A stretch of 23,833 bases of DNA from a virus (IMGVR_UViG_3300047323_000322:1-23833); one strand, 5' to 3'. Positions 2,797 through 23,833 are shown, counted from the first letter of the stretch. Notes: generated by a model from the letters alone, not told the origin. Translations and numbers: made by a program.

Positions 2797-3258
2797 ATGG
2801 CAGCCCTGAAAGATGAGGTGAAGCGCTTCGTTGTGCAGGCGTTGGCCTGCTTTGATACGCCGACTCAGGTAGTGCAGGCGGTCAAGGAAACATTCGGCGT
2901 CGAGGTGTCTCGCCAGCAGTGCGAGCAGTACGACCCAACGAAACACGCTGGCCGTGACCTTGGCGTGAAGTGGAAAGCGGTGTTTGAAGATACCCGCAAG
3001 CGCTTCCGCGAGGAGACGGCCGAAATCCCGATCGCGAACCGAGCGTTCCGCCTTCGCGCCATGAACCGGTTTGTCGAGCGGGCCGAGACGATGAAGAACA
3101 TCGGCCTGGCCATGCAGATCCTCGAGCAGGCCGCCAAGGAAGTCGGCGACGTCTACGTCAATCGCAACCGGAAGGACGATCCAGACGATGAGCCGGCAAT
3201 CCCGACGCGCATCCAGGTTGACGTAGTGGACGCGAGGAAGCCGAATGCCGAGCCTTAA
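2797..3258 (+). CDS. terS: Terminase small subunit (DUF2280 type)
   Basis: 153-aa protein that would recognise phage DNA and recruit the large terminase to start packaging. The N-terminal half (about 5-50) looks like a helix-turn-helix region (TPTQVVQAVKETFGVEVSRQQ), followed by a basic helix (RKRFREE) and a central helical oligomerisation segment. The overall pattern is that of DUF2280 proteins. The 3' end overlaps terL by 14 nt, the usual TerS-TerL linkage. The ribosome site before ATG 2797 is weak, so translation may be modest. Confidence 0.85.
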   Translation: MAALKDEVKRFVVQALACFDTPTQVVQAVKETFGVEVSRQQCEQYDPTKHAGRDLGVKWKAVFEDTRKRFREETAEIPIANRAFRLRAMNRFVERAETMKNIGLAMQILEQAAKEVGDVYVNRNRKDDPDDEPAIPTRIQVDVVDARKPNAEP

Positions 3259-4546
3259 CGTTCCGCAGTCGCAGTTCCTTCTGTTGCCCCACAAGTTTCG
3301 CGCTTTCGTTGCAGGCTTCGGCTCCGGGAAGACCTGGGTCGGATGCTCGGCGCTCAGCAAGCACTTCATGGAGTGGCCCGGCGTCAACGCTGGTTACTTC
3401 GCACCGACCTACCCGCAGATCCGCGACATCTTCTATCCCACGATGGAGGAGGTTGCCTACGACTGGGGGCTGAAGACCAAGATCAACCAGGCGAACCATG
3501 AGGTTCACATTTACAGCGGCCGGCAGTATCGCGGCACTGTGATTTGCCGGTCGATGGAGAAGCCGCAAACAATCGTAGGCTTCAAGATCGGTCATGCCCT
3601 GGTGGATGAGCTGGACGTGCTGACGTCGATCAAGGCTCAGCAAGCCTGGCGCAAGATCATTGCCCGGATGCGTTACAACCTGCCCGGGCTGAAAAACGGC
3701 GTGGACGTGACCACGACGCCGGAAGGTTTCAAGTTCGTCTTCCTCCAGTTCGTGAAGCAGTTGCGTGACAAGCCGGCGCTGAAGGAAATGTATGGGCTGA
3801 TCCAGGCCAGCACCTTCGACAACGAGTTGAACCTGCCTGATGACTACATCGCCTCGCTGATGGAGTCGTACCCCGAGCAACTGATCCGCGCGTACCTAAA
3901 TGGCCAGTTCGTCAACCTGACATCCGGATCGATCTACCACGCTTACGACCGCAAGTTGAACCAGTGCTTCGACACGGTCCAGCCCGGCGAGCCGCTGTTC
4001 ATCGGCATGGACTTCAACGTTGGCAAGATGGCGGCGATCACCCACGTCAAACGTGACCAGGGCCTGCCGCGCGCCGTGGACGAGTTGATGGATGGCTACG
4101 ACACGCCGGACATGATTCGTCGCATCAAAGAGCGGTACTGGGAGCACACCGGCAACGACTACAAGAGGACCTGCGAGATCCGGATCTACCCGGACGCCTC
4201 CGGCGATTCGCGTAAGTCCGTTAATGCCAGCCTCACCGATATCGCCATGCTCAAGCAGGCAGGCTTCACGGTCATCGCGCCGGCGGCCAACCCTCCGGTG
4301 AAGGACCGAATCAACGCCATGAACGCCATGTTCTGCAACGCGCAGGGCGAGCGCCGCTACCTGGTCAACCCGTTTACGTGTCCGACTTACGCCGACGGCC
4401 TTGAACAGCAGATCTGGGCACCCAACGGCGAGCCGGACAAGAGCCAAGGAAACGACCACGCCAACGACGGCGGCGGTTACTTCATTCACCGCGAGTACCC
4501 GATTATTAAACCGGTCACCGCTATCAAAATGGGATACGCCCGATGA
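3245..4546 (+). CDS. terL: Terminase large subunit
   Basis: 433-aa packaging motor: an N-terminal ATPase that pumps DNA and a C-terminal RNase H-like nuclease that cuts it. Visible ATPase features are the Walker A-like AGFGSGKT (23-30), Walker B with catalytic glutamate ALVDE (118-122), and the coupling motif TTTPEG (156-161). The nuclease shows acidic positions D256 (GMDFN), D317 (YPDASG) and D404/D408 (DHANDGG), the usual three-acid arrangement. Length fits the family. It starts at ATG 3245 with GAGGA at 3234-3238 and ends in an ATGA overlap with the portal gene. Confidence 0.97.
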   Translation: MPSLNVPQSQFLLLPHKFRAFVAGFGSGKTWVGCSALSKHFMEWPGVNAGYFAPTYPQIRDIFYPTMEEVAYDWGLKTKINQANHEVHIYSGRQYRGTVICRSMEKPQTIVGFKIGHALVDELDVLTSIKAQQAWRKIIARMRYNLPGLKNGVDVTTTPEGFKFVFLQFVKQLRDKPALKEMYGLIQASTFDNELNLPDDYIASLMESYPEQLIRAYLNGQFVNLTSGSIYHAYDRKLNQCFDTVQPGEPLFIGMDFNVGKMAAITHVKRDQGLPRAVDELMDGYDTPDMIRRIKERYWEHTGNDYKRTCEIRIYPDASGDSRKSVNASLTDIAMLKQAGFTVIAPAANPPVKDRINAMNAMFCNAQGERRYLVNPFTCPTYADGLEQQIWAPNGEPDKSQGNDHANDGGGYFIHREYPIIKPVTAIKMGYAR

Positions 4547-5961: not shown

Positions 5962-7027
5962 CGCCACGATCCGGCACGCGGTTTTCCTTGAGAAGCTGAA
6001 GGCAGGTGAGGCCGGCAAGTTCGCGCCCTTCCTGAAGGAGATCGATCGCTCAATTCGAGATCGGCTCACTCAGTCAGATCTGACTGAATACAACGTGAAG
6101 CGGCTGGAGGCTCTGCTGAAAGAGGTCGACAGCTTGCTGCTAGGCATATTCGACCGCTACAGCGCGCAACTGAACCTCGACCTGATCGACATCGCCAACT
6201 ACGAGGCTGAGTTTGAAGCGTCGAGCCTGGCCCGGTCGGCACCGGTTGGTGTCTCGCTGGATGTGGTCGCGCCGACGGCAGCGGCTATCCGCACCGCGGT
6301 GCTGACCAATCCCCTCAGTGTGCGCGGCACCGGCGGCGGTAAGCTGCTGAAGTCGTTCATCAAGGGCTGGACCAGTGCCGAGCGCGAGCGCGTCACCGGC
6401 ACCATCCGGCAGGGCTTCTTCGAAGGGCAAACGAACTTCCAGATCATTCGCAACATTCGCGGTACAAAGTCTGCCGGCTACAAGGACGGCATTCTCGCCA
6501 CCACTAACCGCAATGCCAGCACGGTGGTGCACACTGCGATTCAGCATGTGTCGTCTCAGGCGCGCATGGAGGTGGCCAAGGCCAACACGGACATCGTGTC
6601 TGAAGTCGAGATGGTCGCCACGCTGGACAGCAAGACCAGCCAGCAGTGTCGGTCGATGGATAAGCGACGGTTTCCGGTCGATTCTGGGCCGCGGCCGCCG
6701 TTTCACCCGAACTGTCGCACCACATTCACTCTGCTGACAAAGCTCAGCGAGATGTTCGCGAAGGGCGCAACACGCGCCTCGGTGGGTGCTGATGGCGGAC
6801 AGCAGGTCAGTGCTGACCTCGATTACTACCACTGGCTTCAGCAGCAGCCCGCATCGTTCCAGGACGTGGCAATCGGTCCCGTGCGGGCCAAGTTGTTCCG
6901 TGAGGGCGGGTTGACGGTGGAGCGCTTCGCCGAACTGCAGCTTGATCGCAACTTCGCCCCGTTGACTCTGGTGCAGATGCGCGCTCTAGAACCGTTATCA
7001 TTTGAAAGGGCTGGTCTGCTAATCTGA
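5936..7027 (+). CDS. MuF/SPP1 gp7-like head morphogenesis protein
   Basis: 363-aa minor head protein, probably bound to the portal and injected or retained inside the procapsid. It overlaps the portal gene by 26 nt and starts at ATG 5936 after GAGGA at 5923-5927. The N-terminal 100 residues are helical; the C-terminal half holds the family signature at about 238-261: Cys, then MDKRRFPVD, then GPRPPFHPNCR, ending in a TTF stretch. This Cys-His-Cys pattern is the mark of the Phage_Mu_F family. About 100 residues follow the signature. Confidence 0.92.
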   Translation: MAANQAILDATIRHAVFLEKLKAGEAGKFAPFLKEIDRSIRDRLTQSDLTEYNVKRLEALLKEVDSLLLGIFDRYSAQLNLDLIDIANYEAEFEASSLARSAPVGVSLDVVAPTAAAIRTAVLTNPLSVRGTGGGKLLKSFIKGWTSAERERVTGTIRQGFFEGQTNFQIIRNIRGTKSAGYKDGILATTNRNASTVVHTAIQHVSSQARMEVAKANTDIVSEVEMVATLDSKTSQQCRSMDKRRFPVDSGPRPPFHPNCRTTFTLLTKLSEMFAKGATRASVGADGGQQVSADLDYYHWLQQQPASFQDVAIGPVRAKLFREGGLTVERFAELQLDRNFAPLTLVQMRALEPLSFERAGLLI

Positions 7028-10447: not shown

Positions 10448-10639
10448 ATGACGAAATTAGAAGCTTGGACTCGATTTGCTGAAAGTGCATTGATCGGAGT
10501 TATAACTGCCAAAGGAAACTCAATTCCACATGACAATCCAACAAAAACAGCGGCGAGTTACGCGGATAGCATGTTGAAAGAGTGGGAGAAAAAAAAGCAA
10601 CAACTCGAAGATGAGCGACTCGCCGCTTACAGCGAATAA
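10448..10639 (+). CDS. Small accessory protein of unknown function (moron)
   Basis: 63-aa protein starting at ATG 10448 with AGGAG at 10436-10440. A longer in-frame start at 10409 (touching the connector stop) has no ribosome site. It has an N-terminal aromatic/hydrophobic helix and a highly charged C-terminal helix (EWEKKKQQLEDER). The gene is more AT-rich than its neighbours and is followed at once by its own terminator, while sitting between two head-completion genes. No family recognised. Confidence 0.65.
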   Translation: MTKLEAWTRFAESALIGVITAKGNSIPHDNPTKTAASYADSMLKEWEKKKQQLEDERLAAYSE

Positions 10640-10643
10640 TTTT

Positions 10644-10668
10644 AGCCCAGCCATCGCGCTGGGCTTTT
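10644..10668 (+). terminator. Rho-independent terminator of moron 10448-10639
   Basis: Perfect 8-bp stem AGCCCAGC / GCTGGGCT with a 6-nt loop and a short T-run. It lies 4 nt after the moron stop and just before the next head gene. Confidence 0.8.
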
Positions 10669-10684
10669 CACATCTGGAGCCACC

Positions 10685-11053
10685 ATGGCCTTCTATGACG
10701 AAATGGCCATGATGGCTCTGGAGATGATCACAGAGTTCGGCCAGCCCGTGACCATCAGCAAGACGGAGCCGGGCGAGTACGATCCTGAAACAGGTGGGGA
10801 TTCACCGGGCGCCACCATCGAGCAGACCGCCCAAGGCATCCTGCTCGACTTCACCGGTCAGGAATTCCAGAACAACAGCCTCATCAAGCAGGGCGACAAG
10901 AAACTGAAGATCGCCGCTCAGCGGCTGGAGTGGGTGCCGGACCTGCTGAACAAAGTGATCATTCAGGGGCGCACCTGGTCAATCGTGCCGCCTTTGAAAG
11001 AAGTGAATCCCGCCGGGACGGCGGTTCTTTATGAGCTGCAGGTGCGGTCATGA
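10685..11053 (+). CDS. Putative head closure/head-tail joining protein
   Basis: 122-aa, beta-rich protein with a GGAG ribosome site before ATG 10685. The order connector, this gene, gp10-like, tail terminator is that of the head-completion block of HK97- and SPP1-like phages, in which the second small protein plugs the head. The pattern of a short N-terminal helix, an early 'VTISKTEPGEYDPETGG' turn, then strands ending in a 'V..GRTWSIVPPLKEVNPAGTAVLYELQVR' segment fits the family of phage minor head/stopper proteins. No catalytic motif is expected. It overlaps the next gene by ATGA. Confidence 0.7.
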   Translation: MAFYDEMAMMALEMITEFGQPVTISKTEPGEYDPETGGDSPGATIEQTAQGILLDFTGQEFQNNSLIKQGDKKLKIAAQRLEWVPDLLNKVIIQGRTWSIVPPLKEVNPAGTAVLYELQVRS

Positions 11054-14142: not shown

Positions 14143-14459
14143 GCGTCTCCCGCAAGCTGTACGAGCCGGGGCCGTCAGCCGAATCGCTGGCGGCCTTCGG
14201 CCTTTCTCTTCGTGACATACCCGATGAAATCTGTGAGGTCTGGCCTGATGTATGGCAAGCCTTTAAGGTCTTCGAGGCCATGGGCACCCAGTGGCGTACA
14301 GGCGCGTGCGGCGCTACCGGACTCGATTACACGTCAATTCGCCATGTCGCCGGCTTTCTCGGCCTTACCCGGTCGGAGGTCGCCGGCGTCTTTCCAGACA
14401 TCCGCGTCATGGAAGCCGAAGCCCTGCGGGTGATGGCGGAACAGAGGGACAGTAAATGA
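13762..14459 (+). CDS. Tail assembly chaperone, -1 frameshift fusion (lambda gpGT-like)
   Basis: Fusion of about 232 aa produced by a -1 shift on GGGAAAC at 14130-14136. After the shift the reading is CTC CTA AGC and continues without a stop to TGA 14457-14459, giving a downstream part of about 107 residues (SRKLYEPGPSAESLAAFGL..., then 'DYTSIRHVAGFLGL', 'EALRVMAEQRDSK'). That part resembles DUF1799, the usual T-side partner in such chaperone pairs. There is no good ribosome site or start for it alone, so the fusion is the natural product. The end overlaps the tape measure start (ATGA). Confidence 0.85.
14130..14136 (+). promoter_or_regulatory. Programmed -1 ribosomal frameshift site GGGAAAC
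   Basis: The heptamer lies exactly in the X XXY YYZ register of the zero frame: CTG GGA AAC, re-read as GGG AAA. The zero-frame stop follows one codon later (TAA 14140-14142). Lambda G-T uses the closely related GGGAAAG. Confidence 0.88.
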
Positions 14460-17400
14460 GCACCACCTTCGCGTCCCTCGGTATCGAGGTGAACTCCTCG
14501 TCGGCATCCAGGGCGGCTGACGATCTCGACAAGCTGGTCGACTCGGCAGTTGATGCCGAAAAGGCGATTGATGATCTCGGCAAGTCGGGCGAGGGCCTGG
14601 CCAACACCGGCAAGAAAATCAGCCAAGCCGAGAATGAGGCTGCTCAGGGCATCGACAGGGCCACGGGCGCCAAAGAGCGCCAGGTTGATGCCAGCCGCAA
14701 GGCAGGTGCCAGCGCGGCCAGTGAAATCGCGATCATCAGCCAGCTCGACAAGGCGATGTCAGGCAACATCGGCAGCATGGAGCAACTGATCCAGGCTGAA
14801 GGCTTGCTGGAGCGCGCTCGCAAGGGCGGTCTCGTCACCATCGAGCAGCAGGAGTCCTATCAGGATCGGCTTGGCAAGGCGTATGAGCGAATCGAGAAAG
14901 CCGAAGCCAAGGAGATGGCGCAGAAGCAGCGGCTGATCGATGCTGAAAACCGTCAGATCGAAGCGTTGAAGCGCACGGTCAACGGCATCGACCCGGTCAC
15001 TGCGAAGTTGGCAAAGCTGGAGGCGCAGGAGAAAGCGCTCAACGATCTGTATAAGGCCGGCCAGATCGACGCGACTCGCTACGGTGAGGCGCTGGCGAAG
15101 ATCGGCAAAGACCGTGACGGTCTGACCGCGACAGAAACTGCATTCGATAAGTTGAAGCTCGGTACCCGCCAGGCGCAAGAAAACGTGATGCAGCTGACCA
15201 ATGCCCTGCAGTCTGGGGATTGGGGGAGTGGTGCGCGGGCTGTCGCTCAGTTGGGCGCCGGTGCGGGCGCGTCTGCCAAGAGCCTGGCCGCAGCACTGAT
15301 TCCTGCCGGCTTGCTGGCTGGTGTCCTCGGCGCGCTGGGTTATGCATACTTCGACGCACAGAAACAGGCCCGCGAGTTCAACGTGGCCATCAACGGCGGA
15401 TCAAACGATGCCGGTCAGAGCATTGACAGCCTTAAGGTGATGGCCGATACCGCCGGGGCGATCACTGAGAACTTCGCGGGCGCTCGGGAGGCTGTGATTG
15501 CACTGGCTTCCGGTGCCGCTACAAGCGGCGTCCAAATGCAGAACCTGGCTCAGGCCGCCGCAGCTATTGGTGAGGTGGCAGGGAGGGGCGCTGGAGACAT
15601 CGCCAAGTCGCTCGCGAATGCCGGAGACACCGCCACAGAAGCCGCGCAGAAGATCAGCGACCAGTATGGGCTGCTCACCTACGAGCAGTACCAGACGATC
15701 AAGGCGATTGATGATCAGGGAGACCATCAGCGAGCGCTGGACACCCTGAGTGAAGATCTCAATCAGTCGGCCCAGGAGCGCTTGAAGCATTACCGGGAAT
15801 CTCTGTCCGATATCGAACGCGATTGGGATCGGGTGAAGGTGGCCATCATGGGCGCTTACGCCGAAGTCCGATCAGAGATTTTCCCTGATCTGGCAAAGCA
15901 GATCGAGATCACCCAGCGCGTACTGGAAACCCGGAAGGGGGGCGGGGTCACAGGTGCGATATCAAACGGGCTGAGCTCGCTCAATTCCTTTCTGGGGTTG
16001 AACGACGGTGAGAACGACGACTCGACGCCTGCGCTGGAGGCCAAGCTTGCAGGACTGAAGGCACGCTTGTCAGCGAGCGAAAGCAACACTGCCGCGACTG
16101 GCGAAGCGACTCGGGCGAACAAGGAATTGATCGCTGTCCAGAAGGAACTGGACAAGCAGATGGACAACCTGAACCCACTCGCAAAGCGTCAAGAGGCCTA
16201 CAAGAAGCTCAACGATCAGTTCACGACGCTTTATCAAGACGCCGAAAAGACCGGTCAAAAATCACCATTGCTCGACGGTGTGTTCTTCGACGGCCAAAAG
16301 TTCTCTGGTGGCGCCTACGACAAACTGCGTAAGGCAATCGACGAGCAGAAAAAGGACCCCAAAGCTGCTGCGGGTAGCGTCGATCTATCCGGGTTCAATG
16401 ACTCGAAAAACGCGCTCAACACCGTGCTCGCCGAGTACAAAAATGCTCAAAAGGATTTGGAGGCTTCGCAAAAGGCTGGGCTGATCTCGCAGGCTGATTA
16501 TCTGCAAGCGCGTGAAGCCATGATCGGCAACGAGCGCGACGAGGTCACTGCAGCTTATGAGGCTGAGATCACCGCACTGGAAGCGGCGAAGAGCAAAGCC
16601 GGCACATCGGCCGCACAGCGCATCCAGCTTGACCAGAAAATCGCCGACGCCAGGGCTGCCATGGTCAAGGTGCAGCAGGATGCTGACACCGAATTGAGCG
16701 TGCTGGCGAAGAACGAAGAAGGCCGGCTGAAGAAGCAGACCGAGGCCGTCAACACCTATAGCAGCGCGCTGCAGCAACAAGTCAAAACTTTGCGTGAGCA
16801 GGGCCAGCGTGCGGCGGCGGGCATCGGCCTGGGAGATCGTCAGCGCGATCTGATGAGCCAGCAGAACGGCATCGACGATAGCTTCAATCAGCAGAAGCTG
16901 GATCTGGCGAACCAGTACGGTGATGGCTCGCGCGGCATGAGCCTCGACGAGTACACGCAGAAGCTGGCGGCACTGAAGGCAACTCAGCAGGATCTGCACG
17001 ATACGGTTCAAGCCAACTACGACGAGATGACGGCAGCCCAGGGCGACTGGAGTGCTGGAGCATCGTCGGCGTGGCAGAACTATCTGGAGTCCGCACAGAA
17101 TGCGGCGGGGCAGACGAAAAGCCTGCTCACCAATGCGTTCAGCTCGGTAGAGGACGCTGTGGCGAATTTCGCTATCAACGGCAAATTCTCGTTTTCTGAC
17201 TTCACCAAATCGGTGTTGGCGGATATGGCGAAGATCGCCGCTCGACAGGCTACGTCTCAAGGGCTCAACGCTCTATTCGGCGTTGCTGCATCTGCGGCGG
17301 GTTCGTACTTCGGTGGTGGCGGTGGCAATGGATTGGCCGCTGGGTCTGCAGGTGCAGTGTCGTCAGATCTCGGAGCGTCGCAGGCCGGCTACACGGGGTT

Positions 17401-18887: not shown

Positions 18888-19652
18888 ATGCGCAAACACA
18901 TTTTGAGCGCGATCCAGGCGCACGCAGCGGCCGAATACCCGAAAGAGTGCTGCGGGCTCCTGCTGGCGATCGGTCGCAAGCAGCAGTACTTCCCTTGCAT
19001 CAATGTCTCGACCGAGCCTAACGAAGAGTTCCGGATCGACCCCGAGGAATACGCGGCGGCCGAAGACATAGGCGAAGTGATCGGCGTGGTGCATTCGCAT
19101 CCGGACGCCACCAGCAGGCCCTCACCGCGCGACCTCGCCATGTGCGAAGCGACGGCGATGCCCTGGCACATCCTGAGCTGGCCGGAAGGCGATCTGCGGA
19201 CCATCACTCCTGCCGGCGAAGTACTGCTTCTGAAGCGGCCGTTCGTGCACGGTGCCTGGGACTGCTGGCAGGTCTGCGCCGATTGGTACAAGCGCAAGTG
19301 GGGGCTGGAGTTCGAAGCGTTCAAGCGCGCCGATGGCTGGTGGGAAAGCAAGGACAACACCAGCCTCTACGAAGCGAACTACGAGGCAGCCGGCTTCTAC
19401 CGCGTCGACCAGCCGCAGCGCGGTGACATGATCGTGATGGAGGTGGGAAGAACGGTTTACCCGAACCACGCCGGGATATTTCTCGGCTCAGATCCTGCGT
19501 TGCCGGGTGAGGATGCTGCAACGTTCGGCCCTGGGCCGTTCCTGCTGCACCACCTGTACGGCAGGCCGTCAGAGGTCATTGTCTTCGGCGGGCCGTGGCT
19601 GGATCGCACGCGCCTGATCCTCAGGCACAAAAATGCACAACCAACCAAATGA
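18888..19652 (+). CDS. K: Tail protein K: JAMM plus NlpC/P60 peptidases
   Basis: 254-aa protein starting at ATG 18888 with AGGAG at 18877-18881; a longer frame from 18786 is inside L. The N-terminal domain is a JAB1/MPN metalloprotease with E20 and the intact H69-x-H71-x7-S79-x2-D82 zinc motif (HSHP...PSPRD). The C-terminal domain is an NlpC/P60 cysteine peptidase with C126 (WDCW), H194 (NHAGI) and a likely third residue at H221/H222. Together they fit lambda-type K, a tail-tip protein with possible peptidoglycan-cleaving activity. Gene I usually follows directly, but here about 4.1 kb intervenes. Confidence 0.93.
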   Translation: MRKHILSAIQAHAAAEYPKECCGLLLAIGRKQQYFPCINVSTEPNEEFRIDPEEYAAAEDIGEVIGVVHSHPDATSRPSPRDLAMCEATAMPWHILSWPEGDLRTITPAGEVLLLKRPFVHGAWDCWQVCADWYKRKWGLEFEAFKRADGWWESKDNTSLYEANYEAAGFYRVDQPQRGDMIVMEVGRTVYPNHAGIFLGSDPALPGEDAATFGPGPFLLHHLYGRPSEVIVFGGPWLDRTRLILRHKNAQPTK

Positions 19653-19714
19653 CGCGGCGGTGCCGCTGGAGCTATTGATGAGTGAAATAGAATCGAAAAG
19701 TAAGCCCGTTAGCG

Positions 19715-19744
19715 ACTTCCCTGGTCACGCTGACGCAGGGAAGT
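19715..19744. terminator. Strong hairpin between tail gene K and convergent gene
   Basis: Arms ACTTCCCTG (19715-19723) and CAGGGAAGT (19736-19744) pair perfectly. Inside, GTCA pairs with TGAC around a 3-nt loop, leaving one bulged G, so the stem has 13 pairs. It lies between the K stop and the stop of the leftward gene 19757-20002, the expected place for a bidirectional terminator, although no T-run follows on either strand. Confidence 0.6.
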
Positions 19745-19756
19745 TGTTGCAATGGA

Positions 19757-20002
19757 TCAGTCGTCAGATTTCGGTGACTCAACTGGGTGCAAACCTTTTA
19801 TCAGCGCTCGAAGCGCCAAATGATTGCCCGATGAGCCATCAGCGTAATCTCGATCAAAAGGTAGCGCTTCCATAAGTTCCTGCGCCGCATTGCTGATTTT
19901 CGTGCGCTTCGACAAATCCAGGCTAGCAAGGGCCGTCCCAATTAGGGTGATCGCTGCGAGGGTTCCCGTCTCGAATGAACTCAGAACTTTCTTTTCACTC
20001 AT
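19757..20002 (-). CDS. Small reverse-strand protein of unknown function
   Basis: 81-aa product. The start at ATG 20002 has AAGGAG 6 nt upstream on the minus strand; a longer frame to 20041 is not needed. It has a hydrophobic stretch at about 12-28 (TGTLAAITLIGTALASL), possibly one membrane helix, then a polar C-terminal part. The ATG overlaps the TGA of an upstream open frame (ATGA) that lacks a good start. The gene is part of the accessory insertion between K and I. Family not recognised. Confidence 0.7.
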   Translation of the reverse strand: MSEKKVLSSFETGTLAAITLIGTALASLDLSKRTKISNAAQELMEALPFDRDYADGSSGNHLALRALIKGLHPVESPKSDD

Positions 20003-20136
20003 TTGATGCTCCTTGCGATATCCGCGCCGAAATTGGCGCAATCCCAGTCCTTGGGCTTGCAGGCAAAGGACCGGGAAAATCCGTTGCGTGAGGGCAAGAG
20101 GCTACTATTGGTGGCTGACGTTAAGGTACTGGGATT
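19999..20136 (-). pseudogene. Possible remnant reading frame upstream of 19757-20002
   Basis: On the minus strand 45 open codons end in the TGA at 20001-19999 that overlaps the next ATG. The end reads ACKPKDWDCANFGADIARSIK, Cys-containing and gene-like. There is no ATG; the only candidate is a TTG at about 20097 without a convincing ribosome site. It may be the tail of a lost gene or a poorly started short one. Confidence 0.25.
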
Positions 20137-20154
20137 TCATCCACACTGGATGAA
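20136..20154. promoter_or_regulatory. Perfect inverted repeat, candidate operator
   Basis: TTCATCCA, a 3-nt spacer and TGGATGAA form a perfect 8-bp dyad. It sits in the divergent gap between the leftward small gene and the rightward gene starting near 20220. It shares the core ATCCA(C) with the repeats at 21900-21965. No T-run follows, so an operator is more likely than a terminator. Confidence 0.45.
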
Positions 20155-20219
20155 TGCTCAGGTAGTGTTGCAATGTGCGGTAGGCGATGATGGCGTTTCG
20201 CCAAAATAGGAGTGTGGTA

Positions 20220-20726
20220 GTGGTTATGGATAGAAATGAAAAAGAGCGTATCGGGGTAGTTCTGCATTTAGACAGAAACGAATATCAAACTTCTATAATT
20301 GAGTGGGGGTTTGAGCTGCCTCCTGATTATAAGATTTCTCTTGAGTCATTAAGTTGGTGTCGATATGTTGCCTTCGTGGTCGACGGAGTTATGAAATCGG
20401 TTGGCGAGATCAATCGGTGGAGTTTTGATACTGGAAATGCCGGAACAAGATCGGCAACCATTGTCCTTCGTTCTGATAGTGTCCAAGAACTAGCCGATGA
20501 CCTAAGGAGGGATATCAAGGCGCTACAATGGCTTACGAATTATCAGGGTGAACTCATTGCGCAGGTAATGGCTGAGACTCGAGTCAAGCAGAAACCATCC
20601 GACGATTTGCCAACTCTAGATCTGCAAGAGGCAGCAACAGCAGTTGCGAGACGCTTTAATGTCAAAGCCGAACAGGTAGAAATCAATGTGCGATTGACGG
20701 CTTATCGGACGGTAGGCAGCGATTGA
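20220..20726 (+). CDS. Accessory protein of unknown function in K-I insertion
   Basis: The frame is open from 20187. I favour GTG 20220, 7 nt after AGGAG at 20208-20212; ATG 20226 (MDRNEKER...) is the nearest alternative, and the ATGs at 20187/20190 lack a ribosome site. The product is about 168 aa, soluble, beta-rich at first ('IGVVLHLDRNEYQTSIIEWGF'), then helical from about 75, with no motif I recognise. The DNA is AT-rich compared with the tail genes. A hairpin pair follows at 20730-20797, so it is probably a single-gene unit. Confidence 0.65.
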   Translation: MVMDRNEKERIGVVLHLDRNEYQTSIIEWGFELPPDYKISLESLSWCRYVAFVVDGVMKSVGEINRWSFDTGNAGTRSATIVLRSDSVQELADDLRRDIKALQWLTNYQGELIAQVMAETRVKQKPSDDLPTLDLQEAATAVARRFNVKAEQVEINVRLTAYRTVGSD

Positions 20727-20729
20727 AAA

Positions 20730-20760
20730 CAACAAACCCAGCCCCGCGCTGGGCTTGTTG
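20730..20760. terminator. Hairpin terminator, T-tract on minus strand
   Basis: CAACAAACCCAGC (20730-20742) pairs with GCTGGGCTTGTTG (20748-20760), 12 of 13 positions. Read leftward it is followed by TTTTC, so it is best as the terminator of the leftward operon ending at 20827. It may also slow the rightward transcript. Confidence 0.65.
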
Positions 20761-20766
20761 CATCTG

Positions 20767-20797
20767 GCGGCTGCGATAAGGGCCGCATTTCTTTTTC
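20767..20797 (+). terminator. Possible terminator of gene 20220-20726
   Basis: GCGGCT / GGCCGC (6 pairs, one T-G) with an 8-nt loop, then ATTTCTTTTTC. The T-rich run makes it a better rightward terminator than the larger hairpin before it. Confidence 0.5.
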
Positions 20798-20826
20798 GGC
20801 GGCCATGTGCCGGCCTGGGGCTCCGG

Positions 20827-21054
20827 TTAGTCCTCAAGTATGCCCTTGAAATATTTGTACTCGTCAGTCTCAGGGCAGTAGCCGCCTCCGTAAGACCTAA
20901 AGTTAGCCCCAAGGCGTTTTGCTTCTTGGTGCGCTTCAACAAGCCCCGGATAGATATTGTAAGGCTCTTTAGTGTCCGTGTTGACAATGACGAATCCACG
21001 AAACCAACCTGGCTCCCCAGGGTACGGCTCCAAATGTCTAACATCTTTTTTCAT
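20827..21054 (-). CDS. Small protein of unknown function, leftward operon
   Basis: 75-aa product starting at ATG 21054 with AAGGAG about 10 nt upstream on the minus strand. It is rich in aromatic and charged residues (GEPGWFRGFVIVNTDTKEPYNIYPG, then a helix, then GGGYCPETDEYKYF), probably a small alpha/beta fold. It is the last gene of the leftward Arc-led operon before the 20730-20760 hairpin. No family recognised. Confidence 0.65.
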   Translation of the reverse strand: MKKDVRHLEPYPGEPGWFRGFVIVNTDTKEPYNIYPGLVEAHQEAKRLGANFRSYGGGYCPETDEYKYFKGILED

Positions 21055-21123
21055 AATGTTTTCGCTCCTTCGATTAAATGCTCAAGCAATGCTTTCATAG
21101 CATGGTGCTTGGTCGGGCTTGCC

Positions 21124-21453
21124 CTATCTGGTGATCGGCATATGGCGGAAGTATTCACCAATAGCGCTTATAGTCGTTGGAGTGACATCTACTTCGTCGT
21201 ACCAGAATGAGGCCCGCAGCGGGATGTTAACGTTGAATAGGCATACGAACTGTCCTTCATCCAGATCGTAGATTACGCGCTCAACTGCTGGAGCAAGCTC
21301 TGAACCTGTCATCGTTTCCCACAACGTGCAGCTGGTTCCTTGCTCAAAATGGAGGCCAGGGAAAGGGGCGAAAGGAAGAATGAGTTGATGGCTTAAGTAG
21401 CCCACTAGTTCACCTTTTTGAACAACTCGTACTGCAAGCAAAACCTTGTGCAT
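21124..21453 (-). CDS. Protein of unknown function next to Arc gene
   Basis: I prefer ATG 21453 (109 aa), which has GGAG 5 nt upstream on the minus strand. A GTG at 21495 that overlaps the stop of the Arc gene (GTGA) would give 123 aa and also make sense as a coupled start. The product has beta-like hydrophobic segments (HKVLLAVRVVQKGELVGYL, FVCLFNVNIPL) and no signal peptide or known motif. It is second in the leftward operon that begins with the Arc-type regulator, so it may be co-regulated with it. Confidence 0.65.
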   Translation of the reverse strand: MHKVLLAVRVVQKGELVGYLSHQLILPFAPFPGLHFEQGTSCTLWETMTGSELAPAVERVIYDLDEGQFVCLFNVNIPLRASFWYDEVDVTPTTISAIGEYFRHMPITR

Positions 21454-21491
21454 TGGAGCTCCAACGATTGAGGTGCGGCGGGCTTGGAGGA

Positions 21492-21860
21492 TCACTTTCG
21501 CTCGTAACTTTTTACGATGTTTCCGTGTTCATCGGCAGTGATTGCGTGCTCGCCAGTTTTTTCGTCGTATAAACGCTCAACTCTCCTGATTCCATCTTCG
21601 GCGCTAGACAGCAGAAATCTGAGCTGACTCAAGGCGAGAACAATACTTTGGTCAGCAGGCTCAACCGAATTCTCTTTTGCCCATGCTTCGTAAGCGTCTT
21701 GGTCAACGATGGCTTGATCATGTGCATACGATTCTTCGAGTCGAGCGATGATTTCCGCGTTGAGGCTACGCTTTGCGTGCTTAGCGGATGATTCAAGCAT
21801 TTCACGCAGCTCGGCAGGCATCCGCAGTGAGTAGGGTGGTAATACGTGCCGGTCCGTCAT
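21492..21860 (-). CDS. Arc-type ribbon-helix-helix regulator
   Basis: 122-aa DNA-binding protein. Residues about 9-46 carry the Arc/Mnt fold: a short strand (PPYSLRMP), then helix A (AELREMLESSAKHAKR), then S-L-N-A-E and helix B (IIARLEESYA). The strand would enter the major groove, as in P22 Arc. The C-terminal about 75 residues have a helix and an extended tail not found in Arc (53 aa), possibly for oligomerisation. It reads leftward, divergent from a second Arc-like gene at 21985, with shared repeats between. In P22, Arc and Mnt control the antirepressor; a similar job here is inferred from context. Confidence 0.88.
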   Translation of the reverse strand: MTDRHVLPPYSLRMPAELREMLESSAKHAKRSLNAEIIARLEESYAHDQAIVDQDAYEAWAKENSVEPADQSIVLALSQLRFLLSSAEDGIRRVERLYDEKTGEHAITADEHGNIVKSYERK

Positions 21861-21899
21861 GATTTTCCAAAGTGCAGTGATATTAAACGCAGTTTGTAC

Positions 21900-21965
21900 G
21901 TGGATTCATAAAGATTCAAGAATCCACTTGACGTCAATTTGTCTGTGACTGCATTATGAATCCAC
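21900..21965. promoter_or_regulatory. Divergent operator region with three GAATCCAC half-sites
   Basis: GTGGATTCATAA at 21900-21911 and its exact reverse complement TTATGAATCCAC at 21954-21965 flank a third half-site GAATCCAC at 21920-21927. A palindrome TTGACGTCAA at 21928-21937 supplies a -35-like TTGACG on both strands. The layout between two divergent Arc-type genes is that of a shared operator, as in P22 immI, with spacing different. Confidence 0.7.
21928..21957 (+). promoter_or_regulatory. Candidate rightward promoter for Arc2-antirepressor
   Basis: TTGACG (21928-21933, 5/6) and CATTAT (21952-21957, 4/6) with an 18-nt spacer. The -10 overlaps the third operator copy, so a bound repressor would block it. 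A leftward counterpart using the other strand of TTGACGTCAA has a poor -10. Confidence 0.45.
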
Positions 21966-21984
21966 ACGAAACGGAGATCGATTC

Positions 21985-22158
21985 ATGCACAACAAAGTCA
22001 GATCCTCACCATTTCCTCTTCGGTTAGACGATGAGGTTAAAGGCAAAGCGAAAGGTGAGGCGCTCACAAATAGGCGCAGCTTGAATGCCGAGCTGGGGCT
22101 TTTGATTGAGGAAGGTTTGAAATGGCGGAAAGCACAGAGCAAGCAGGCAGTAGCCTGA
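21985..22158 (+). CDS. Small Arc/Mnt-like ribbon-helix-helix protein
   Basis: 57-aa gene translated directly from the sequence: ATG 21985, GGAG at 21973-21976 (8 nt away), stop TGA 22156-22158. The product reads HNKVRSSPFPLRLDDEVKG, then KAKGEALTNRRSLNAELGLL, then IEEGLKWRKAQ. That is the Arc pattern: a basic strand (FPLRLDDEV), helix A, S-L-N-A-E, helix B. Size is near P22 Arc (53 aa). It overlaps the long form of the antirepressor frame by 37 nt. It probably represses the same operator region, possibly in competition with the leftward Arc. Confidence 0.82.
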   Translation: MHNKVRSSPFPLRLDDEVKGKAKGEALTNRRSLNAELGLLIEEGLKWRKAQSKQAVA

Positions 22159-22164
22159 AACAAA

Positions 22165-22198
22165 GAAGCCCCGACGAGGTGAGAGTCGTCAGGGCTTC
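22165..22198 (+). promoter_or_regulatory. Leader hairpin before antirepressor
   Basis: GAAGCCC-C-GACGA pairs with TCGTC-A-GGGCTTC across an 8-nt loop (12 pairs, one C-A mismatch). It lies between the small Arc gene and the antirepressor ATG at 22233, 35 nt upstream. Without a T-run it is more likely a regulatory RNA element (attenuation, antisense target or translation control) than a terminator. Confidence 0.6.
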
Positions 22199-22232
22199 GG
22201 GAAACGAGATCAACTTCGAGGAAGAAATCGTC

Positions 22233-23132
22233 ATGAATAATGCTACCGCAATTCCAAAAGAAAACAATGTCCAGTGTCGGACGGCTGAAGTCATCCCCTT
22301 TAGCTTCGGTGCACAACAGGTGCGTACGCTGCTGATTGAAGATCAGCCATGGTTTGTGGCGAACGATGTCTCTGCTGCACTTCAGTACAGCGAAGCCTCG
22401 GCGATGACTCGCCATCTGGACGATGACGAAAAGGGTCTGTCAATTGTGCAGACCCTTGGCGGCGATCAAGAAATGCTCGTTATCAATCAGTCAGGACTTT
22501 ACTCGGCAATACTTCGAAGCCGCAAGGCTGAGGCCAAGCGCTTCAAAAAATGGGTCACTGCCGAGGTTCTCCCGACCATCCGCAAGTACGGTCGCTACGA
22601 AGACCAGGGCAAGATGCAAACCCTTATCGGCCAAACCATCGGTACTGACGGTTTTCACATGCTCGGAGCAGTAGTCAAGGGCAAGGTGTCGAGCCTTCCG
22701 GTTCCAGCTCAGCGACGCGCTACAGCAAAGATCTGGTCACAGACCCATGCTGCGTTCGGCGTTCGCTCGGCAGCGGATATTCCTGCTGATCAGTTAGACG
22801 CAGCTCGCAACTTCATTGCGGCCTATGTCGTGCAAGAAGGTGAGTTTCTGCCGAAAGAGCCAACCAGTCACGGCAACATGCTGACGGATCGGGAGCTGTA
22901 CGACGTGTTCTTCTTGATGCACCACTTTTCGGCGGTAAAGAGGATCTACGACAGCTACCAACTCGCAGCAGCATTTCGGATGCTTCGATCGCTTGCCGGC
23001 GCGGAAATGCTTGACCACTTCCGCGACTCAACGCTGGCGATTGCCACCTTGTCGAAGCGCTTGCCCGATATGGAAGCCGCGGCTGTGCGCATTGGCATGG
23101 ATCCCGGCACGGTGATGAAAAGCGCAGCATGA
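22233..23132 (+). CDS. BRO-N antirepressor
   Basis: 299-aa protein from ATG 22233 (GAGGA at 22218-22222). The frame also opens at ATG 22122 after GAGGAAGG, which would add 37 acidic residues spanning the hairpin; I rank this second. BRO-N is at about 20-122: strand VIPFSF, 'PWFVANDVSAALQYS', 'VINQSGLYSAILRSRKAEAKRFKKWVTAEVLPTIRKYG'. A helical C-terminal part follows (KIWSQTHAAFGVRSAADIP, then 'LTDRELYDVFFLMHHFSAVKRIYDSYQ'), like the ORF6C/P22-antirepressor C-terminal regions. Such proteins bind and disable the prophage repressor. A weakly coupled 25-codon frame overlaps its stop (ATGA). Confidence 0.9.
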   Translation: MNNATAIPKENNVQCRTAEVIPFSFGAQQVRTLLIEDQPWFVANDVSAALQYSEASAMTRHLDDDEKGLSIVQTLGGDQEMLVINQSGLYSAILRSRKAEAKRFKKWVTAEVLPTIRKYGRYEDQGKMQTLIGQTIGTDGFHMLGAVVKGKVSSLPVPAQRRATAKIWSQTHAAFGVRSAADIPADQLDAARNFIAAYVVQEGEFLPKEPTSHGNMLTDRELYDVFFLMHHFSAVKRIYDSYQLAAAFRMLRSLAGAEMLDHFRDSTLAIATLSKRLPDMEAAAVRIGMDPGTVMKSAA

Positions 23133-23206
23133 ACTTCATTCTGAGGGCTTGCGGCCTGGCGCTGGCAAAAAACCTTTTTGGAAGGGTGCGTCGAATACTG
23201 GTGTGA
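23129..23206 (+). CDS. Possible 25-aa peptide coupled to antirepressor
   Basis: ATG 23129 overlaps the antirepressor stop (ATGA) and runs to TGA 23204-23206. The product, MNFILRACGLALAKNLFGRV then RRILV, is an amphipathic or membrane-active-looking helix with basic residues. No own ribosome site is clear. Short length makes chance possible; its coupling and composition are the only support. Confidence 0.3.
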   Translation: MNFILRACGLALAKNLFGRVRRILV

Positions 23207-23237
23207 GCAATTGCGGTTGACGCTTACGCTCGACGCA
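23187..23237. repeat. Inverted repeat TGCGTCGA / TCGACGCA
   Basis: TGCGTCGA (23187-23194) and its exact complement TCGACGCA (23230-23237) are 35 nt apart, in the gap after the antirepressor. They may fold or bind a dimeric protein; no function can be assigned. Confidence 0.35.
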
Positions 23238-23260
23238 GCCTAACACCTTGAGCTGAATTG

Positions 23261-23280
23261 CCCCGCACTTGCGGGGTTTT
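23261..23280 (+). terminator. Rho-independent terminator of antirepressor transcript
   Basis: Perfect 6-bp stem CCCCGC / GCGGGG with loop actt, then TTTT. Confidence 0.85.
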
Positions 23281-23307
23281 GGTGCTTCCATCGCCGAATG
23301 ATAAAGT
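23279..23307 (+). promoter_or_regulatory. Candidate promoter for lipoprotein gene
   Basis: TTGGTG (23279-23284, 3/6) and TAAAGT (23302-23307, 4/6) with a 17-nt spacer, just before the ribosome site of the lipoprotein gene. Match is weak. Confidence 0.3.
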
Positions 23308-23334
23308 CGCGTCAAACTCAAGCGAGGGAACGAC

Positions 23335-23685
23335 GTGAAAATACTCATTGGCGCGATAGCAGTAGTGTTGCTGACCGGGTGCATGGCGCCGACGATGAAA
23401 GAAGCCAGGCAGAAAGGGCCGGACAAGATTCTGTACTCGAAAAAGTCTGATAAGGCAGTCGCTCAATGCATTCAGTACGAATGGCAAAATCAATCCCTGT
23501 TCGGGGTAACGCCTGAGGCGACGCTTCAGCCAGGAAGGGATAGCGGCTACACCGTGTTCACGGCCGGATCAGAATACTTCGTCGACATCCAGCCTGGCGC
23601 ATCCGGTACGGTAGCCAAGTATTACGCGGTGTTGAACAACTGGATATCCGCTAAACGGCTGAGCGCTCTGCAAAGCTGCCTTTGA
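23335..23685 (+). CDS. Small lipoprotein, likely moron
   Basis: 116-aa protein starting with GTG 23335 after GAGGGAA. The signal is MKILIGAIAVVLLTGC, with lipobox L13-T-G-C16, so it would be exported and lipidated at Cys16. The mature part is about 100 residues with two further cysteines (45 and 115) that may form a disulfide, a 'QCIQYEWQNQS' segment and beta-like ends. It is flanked by terminators on both sides and a possible promoter, so it is an independent unit. Envelope lipoproteins in this part of phage genomes often exclude related phages, but this is a guess. Confidence 0.8.
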   Translation: MKILIGAIAVVLLTGCMAPTMKEARQKGPDKILYSKKSDKAVAQCIQYEWQNQSLFGVTPEATLQPGRDSGYTVFTAGSEYFVDIQPGASGTVAKYYAVLNNWISAKRLSALQSCL

Positions 23686-23699
23686 TCGAAACCTATCTC

Positions 23700-23723
23700 A
23701 AAACCCTCTTCCGCGGGTTTTTT
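23700..23723 (+). terminator. Rho-independent terminator of lipoprotein gene
   Basis: Stem AAAACCC / GGGTTTT with an 8-nt loop and further Ts. It closes the insertion just before tail gene I. Confidence 0.8.
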
Positions 23724-23740
23724 ATTGCATGGAGAAAAGC

Positions 23741-23833
23741 ATGTCCGCACAGGCAATCAATTATCAGCCCATGACAACGATCTTGCTTTATGGGCAACTT
23801 CGCCAGTTCGGCCGGTCCTTCCGTCTTTCGGTG
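23741..23833 (+). CDS. I: Tail assembly protein I, 5' end only
   Basis: The first 31 codons run off the window. ATG 23741 follows GGAG at 23731-23734. After a short lead, 'MTTILLYGQLRQFGRSFRLSV' is the family opening (short strand, 'LYG.L...FGR', 'L.V') of lambda tail assembly protein I. In lambda the order is K, I, J, so this is where gene order resumes after the insertion. Confidence 0.8.
   Translation, partial: MSAQAINYQPMTTILLYGQLRQFGRSFRLSV

Follow-up and report, generated by a model that had tools for sequence, protein, structure and literature searches.

A probable P22-type immI antirepressor module, including a sar-like RNA, among the late genes of a lambda-like Pseudomonas phage

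We examined the interval between tail genes K and I of a lambda-like tailed phage represented by a fragment of 23,833 bases (IMGVR_UViG_3300047323_000322:1-23833, the whole of which is called the window). Within this interval lies a cassette composed of a leftward repressor gene, a small rightward repressor-like gene, an antirepressor gene, and a predicted antisense RNA resembling sar of phage P22. The closest annotated relatives are Pseudomonas phages, with 73-79% DNA identity across M-L-K. A search of E. coli genomes gave no DNA match. The gap from the K stop at 19652 to the I ATG at 23741 is 4088 nucleotides (nt) and holds eight plausible genes, A to H; the final 93 bases of the window are the start of I. 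These coordinates confirm the original prediction, which placed at least eight genes in about 4.1 kb. It also described K and I as adjacent in lambda, where the two genes (14276-14875 and 14773-15444) overlap. The insert has a G+C content of 51.1% compared with 58.4% in the structural genes upstream. The borders and the features of the cassette are listed below.

18888-19652, plus strand: tail gene K, left border; PHROG minor tail protein, E 5e-119; Prok-JAB and NlpC/P60 domains.
21492-21860, minus strand: gene E, ribbon-helix-helix repressor in the Mnt position; Pfam Arc, 41.6 bits (cut-off 20.4).
21900-21965, no strand: operator region; GTGGATTCATAA at 21900-21911, GAATCCAC at 21920-21927, TTATGAATCCAC at 21954-21965.
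21928-21957, plus strand: candidate promoter Pant, TTGACG-18-CATTAT, between operator copies.
21985-22158, plus strand: gene F, ribbon-helix-helix protein of 57 amino acids in the Arc position; Pfam Arc, 19.6 bits, and PHROG Arc-like matches.
22164-22232, minus strand: predicted sar-like antisense RNA of about 69 nt, covering the ant leader and GAGGAAG (22218-22224).
22165-22198, minus strand: terminator hairpin of the sar-like RNA, 13-pair stem followed by a T-rich tail, with compensatory changes across relatives.
22233-23132, plus strand: gene G, antirepressor of 299 amino acids; Bro-N, 86.5 bits, E 2e-24; PHROG anti-repressor Ant, E 1e-56.
22240-22267, minus strand: candidate sar promoter, TTGTTT (22267-22262), 16 nt, TAGCAT (22245-22240); weak, without the TG of relatives.
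23741-23833, plus strand: first 31 codons of tail gene I, right border, truncated where the contig stops.

The core, comprising leftward E, the operator region, and rightward F and G, spans 21492-23132 and agrees with P22 immI, mnt/operator/arc/ant, in both gene order and spacing. In the P22 annotation (NC_002371), mnt is leftward, arc rightward, sar leftward (15021-15090) and ant rightward from 15091, and the region lies between genes 16 and 9. E and F are divergent and 124 nt apart, with a common operator and promoter region between them. The operator region contains an exact 12-nt inverted repeat and an 8-nt direct repeat, and two copies of GAATCCAC together with the inverted repeat surround candidate Pant, the only rightward consensus promoter match in 19600-23833. 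Consensus promoter matches in the region are no more frequent than in shuffled sequence, so the evidence for Pant is its position rather than the match itself. G is directly preceded by F on the same strand, with a gap of 74 nt. The Pfam Arc score of F falls slightly below the curated cut-off of 20.4 bits. Relatives of G were taken from viral contigs and genomes, and relatives of E from viral contigs. In loci L165-L169 (L numbers denote the loci compared) relatives of E with 88-92% identity lie next to an arc-ant pair. The phage collection gave a single short match to E and nothing more.

P22 sar is a classic antisense RNA. Both the sequence and its comparison with relatives point to an antisense RNA in the arc-ant gap of the window, with its 5' end (22232) 1 nt ahead of the ant start codon, as in P22. 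An Rfam scan of 4.2 kb on both strands at E<=5 gave only one match, which was leftward, to the full length (1-68) of sar (RF00262). The hairpin is the best terminator-like site within the insert, and the RNA folds better than shuffles, with a z score of -5.0. Where a locus has Arc-type genes, its arc-ant gap contains a leftward terminator whose stem is kept while the sequence varies. An alignment of 25 sequences has 96.7% of cells paired and 58 compensatory cells, as against 19 in shuffles, figures that are inflated because 21/25 sequences were picked by a scan requiring such a stem.

A covariance model, R1, was built from these 25 sequences, which come from Pseudomonas phages alone, P22 being excluded. 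R1 recovers P22 sar at its annotated place and at full length (41.2 bits, E 1.5e-7). It gives the RNA of the window 90.5 bits, but the window is among the R1 sequences. Matches were found in 21/299 Pseudomonas genomes and in 0 of 368 other gammaproteobacteria, where the single match was a Pseudomonas genome used as centre. At 23/23 genome places an open reading frame begins at the 5' end of the RNA and a ribbon-helix-helix gene terminates at its 3' end; the ribbon-helix-helix genes of L204/L207 and L205 were identified manually, in a different frame or with a different start, and at least 2 of the 23 places duplicate sequences in R1. Weak R1 matches in L010, L030, L042 and L075 had suggested inverted modules. 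No Arc or Ant frame was found around the match in L010 (9933-10003, plus strand, inside the K-I gap; 26.7 bits, E 8e-4), and an inverted module there was rejected.

A leftward extended -10 element (TGnTANNNT) occurs at one fixed offset in 22/25 model leaders and 15/21 other leaders. The background rate of this motif is 1.9e-4 per position, and P22 has TGCTATACT at the same place. The R1 match to P22, the R1 genome survey and this fixed-offset promoter are more independent tests than covariation. A leftward promoter at the start of ant is clear in most relatives and weak in the window and L126; the candidate in the window was read off the sequence at the offset conserved in relatives.

Several points weigh against assigning the cassette to the P22 type. 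At 24 bits, the Rfam sar match of the window lies below the curated gathering cut-off (43 bits) and would not be called by Rfam on its own; two relatives, L126 and L178, score 26 bits. The stem-based choice of the aligned sequences, described above, is the second. The Pfam Repressor_Mnt C-terminal domain is present in P22 Mnt and was not found in E, and G is without P22_AR domains and carries Bro-N instead. The immunity region and the target repressor lie outside the window. Finally, the window and L126 share a distinct ant leader without the TG-extended -10.

This leader, along with the result that no leftward consensus promoter at the sar start of the window passes the promoter scan, would fit an alternative in which the Arc/Arc/antirepressor module has no working antisense RNA here. 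The hairpin would then only end leftward read-through or structure the F-G messenger RNA (mRNA), and E and F alone would control G. We consider this unlikely, as the position of the hairpin is conserved together with the 5' part of the RNA, a promoter persists at a fixed offset in relatives, and R1 recognizes P22 sar, a known RNA. Moreover, the ant leader of the window is nearly the same in L126 despite a G that is only 61% identical there. Since the TG of the extended -10 is missing in both the window and L126, the RNA may be made weakly in the window phage, or the form of its promoter may have changed.

Taken together, we felt that the region is best read as an antirepressor module of the P22 immI type with a sar-like RNA, present as an accessory cassette within the late operon of this lambda-like Pseudomonas phage, with a probability of roughly 80%. 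This reading draws on gene order, protein families, operator repeats, the conserved RNA with its geometry, and accessory status, all of which are sequence features. The original prediction had called the module Immunity-I-like, a description strongly supported by an order that matches P22 mnt/arc/sar/ant, including the sar-like antisense RNA. Its extent is refined in two ways: gene H lies outside the module, whose core is E, F and G, and the leftward RNA between F and G had been missed.

The nearest relatives were then compared for accessory status. Among the 80 closest K loci, K and I were both present in 74, with a K-I gap of about 430 to 4660 nt, and the 80 loci contained no relative of E, F or G and no confident sar. 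The module is therefore ruled out as core to the phage group, and the comparison of K-I junctions proposed in the original prediction found it absent from the 74 nearest loci with both K and I. The same comparison found an empty junction in L211, whose K is 81% identical: K and I overlap there by ATGA and the module sits between the tail tube and tape-measure genes, which shows an unoccupied K-I junction as well as a second module site. Such a module is present in about 17 distinct Pseudomonas K-I intervals, and the K-I junction of Pseudomonas lambda-like phages is a variable insertion hotspot. The original prediction regarded the tail operon as an unusual place for a regulatory module. That part does not hold, since about 17 K-I intervals share the arrangement and P22 immI likewise lies among late genes.

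Absence from the nearest relatives, and the weak sar promoter of this copy, would also fit decayed or passenger cargo, a leftover without effect on lysogeny. This is very improbable given that E, F and G are intact open frames and that the operator repeats and the RNA are preserved. The frames of full-length G relatives are likewise open at 60-75% identity.

The components of the module vary among Pseudomonas loci. The antirepressor N-domains joined to the arc-sar leader are Bro-N in the window, P22_AR_N in L178 and L185, Rha in L165, L166 and L203, and ORF6N in L198. In L200, L204, L205 and L207 a DUF3077-type gene (103 amino acids) replaces ant under an arc-sar leader without the usual extended -10, and in L204 an apparent Rha-like gene follows it. 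The leftward partner is either a ribbon-helix-helix protein or a Cro/C1-type helix-turn-helix protein, depending on the locus, and the operator motif tracks the type of leftward repressor. GAATCCAC is found only with the E type of the window (5 loci: the window, L126, L165, L166 and L169), GTCACTA mainly with a second ribbon-helix-helix type, and AATGATG with one helix-turn-helix type.

Such movement among phages and sites, with changing antirepressor domains, is what a weapon with changing targets would display. G could accordingly act in trans on the repressors of other prophages in the same cell rather than on that of its own phage, and the module would then serve in competition between prophages or in cross-induction. 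Gifsy prophages provide known examples of trans-acting antirepressors (Lemire et al. 2011, as cited in PMC7067206). P22 Ant, on the other hand, targets its own c2 repressor (PMC11016777), and we regard a trans role as rather doubtful.

Orientation was compared at loci whose flank contained recognizable tail genes. In 30 loci the antirepressor had sar and ran in the tail-gene direction, and in 29 loci it was without sar and ran against the tail genes. L135, the sole exception by count, has two antirepressors in one prophage (4024-4102 and 6001-6831); the one with sar runs with tail gene I, and the other, a Bro-N type without sar, runs the opposite way. The opposed group is mostly one PAJU2-like lineage in which no relative of E or F was found, so the link between sar and orientation is a lead and not a law. 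The pattern suggests a reason for sar, in that E and F would close Pant and only action at the RNA level would silence ant on upstream late transcripts. Extending this, it is conceivable, at slightly less than an even chance, that sar is a portable antisense cassette rather than a P22-specific one. One arc-sar leader would then have been combined with four or more unrelated antirepressor N-domains and with a DUF3077 gene, with a ribbon-helix-helix or Cro/C1-type repressor opposite, and would be kept where ant runs with late genes since only an RNA-level brake silences ant on late read-through.

In the P22 scheme, a Mnt-type repressor holds ant off in the lysogen, Arc damps it during infection, sar blocks translation, and Ant inactivates the repressor (PMC11016777, PMC12197685). 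Binding, expression, silencing and effects on lysogeny in the window phage are proposed by analogy. E would be made leftward in the lysogen, bind the GTGGATTC/GAATCCAC sites over Pant, and hold F and G off. During infection, prior to the build-up of E, Pant would drive F and antirepressor G, and F would subsequently damp its own operon. G would inactivate a phage repressor and thereby favor lysis. The leftward RNA of about 69 nt, initiated at the beginning of G, would pair with the mRNA between F and G, cover the ribosome-binding site of G and block its translation. Because it acts on mRNA, sar could silence G on late read-through from the tail genes, which repressors of Pant cannot do.

Among known systems, P22 immI is the nearest, sharing the divergent leftward ribbon-helix-helix repressor, the intervening operator region, the small ribbon-helix-helix gene, the antirepressor, the leftward RNA of about 69 nt between arc and ant that begins 1 nt ahead of ant, and a direction common with the late genes. 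The module differs from P22 in antirepressor domain (Bro-N, not P22_AR), leftward repressor (E is without the Mnt C-terminal domain) and site (K-I, not 16-9), as well as in operator sequence and in its weak sar promoter. The likeness to Rfam sar is a full-length match at the right place and strand, with R1 recognizing P22 sar reciprocally. The differences are the score below the curated cut-off, a 5' hairpin that is not conserved, and a terminator loop region two nt longer. PAJU2-type P. aeruginosa phages have a Bro-N ant beside tail genes, 55-65% identical to G, but that ant opposes the tail genes, and neither a relative of E or F nor a sar at the ant start was found in them. The c4 RNA of phages P1 and P7 likewise acts as an antisense regulator of an antirepressor (PMC12197685), but it is classed there as a different RNA. 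Pf filamentous prophages have Arc/Mnt-domain regulators in Pseudomonas phages, but they are filamentous, and the available part of PMC7549136 describes no antirepressor-sar arrangement for them.

The remaining genes of the interval are as follows.

19757-20002, minus strand: gene A, small gene adjoining K; phrog_17867; independent cargo outside the switch.
20226-20726, plus strand: gene B, cargo; open frame with no family match in four libraries.
20827-21054, minus strand: gene C, third frame of the leftward run E-D-C; weak phrog_4280, E 0.01.
21124-21453, minus strand: gene D, second frame of the leftward run E-D-C.
23335-23685, plus strand: gene H, lipoprotein-like; phrog_914; usual neighbor of I.

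The family libraries did not recognize a function for A, B, C or D, and PADLOC gave zero matches for A-D and H, which rules them out as known defense genes. In L005 and L078, both with K-I intervals without G, gene A has counterparts of 98-99% identity, and a different leftward small-gene family is present in 33/92 Pseudomonas K-I intervals. Relatives of D adjoin E-type genes in L169 (79% identity) and L210 (55%), so D may belong to the leftward unit; the leftward genes past mnt in P22 include sieA, a superinfection-exclusion gene. The H family occurs in 80/92 Pseudomonas K-I intervals, which makes H an ordinary part of the K-I site and rules it out as a module member. The start of I is 87-97% identical over 31 amino acids to I of L057 and L072, and its PHROG tail assembly match is weak because the contig stops inside the gene. 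A second, broken K 3' end lies within the K-I gap of L072 (about 10599-10694), L032 (10411-10515) and L044 (6414-6509). From their sequence, these extra ends look as if recombination had brought in cargo plus a duplicated K end. In L093, an int-alpA RNA above the Rfam curated cut-off (45.0 versus 35.8 bits) lies at 3044-3109 on the plus strand, upstream of K of a phage contig.

The literature found mentions sar only in P22 and its relatives. No paper describing sar or immI in Pseudomonas tailed phages was found in the open literature, subscription journals and preprints being outside the search, and their novelty in these phages is provisional. The large and divergent Pseudomonas set brings comparative power to sar through its conserved end points, terminator stem and promoter position. 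It would extend the curated sar model past Salmonella phages, and it suggests a testable answer to the question of why P22 needs an RNA beyond two repressors.

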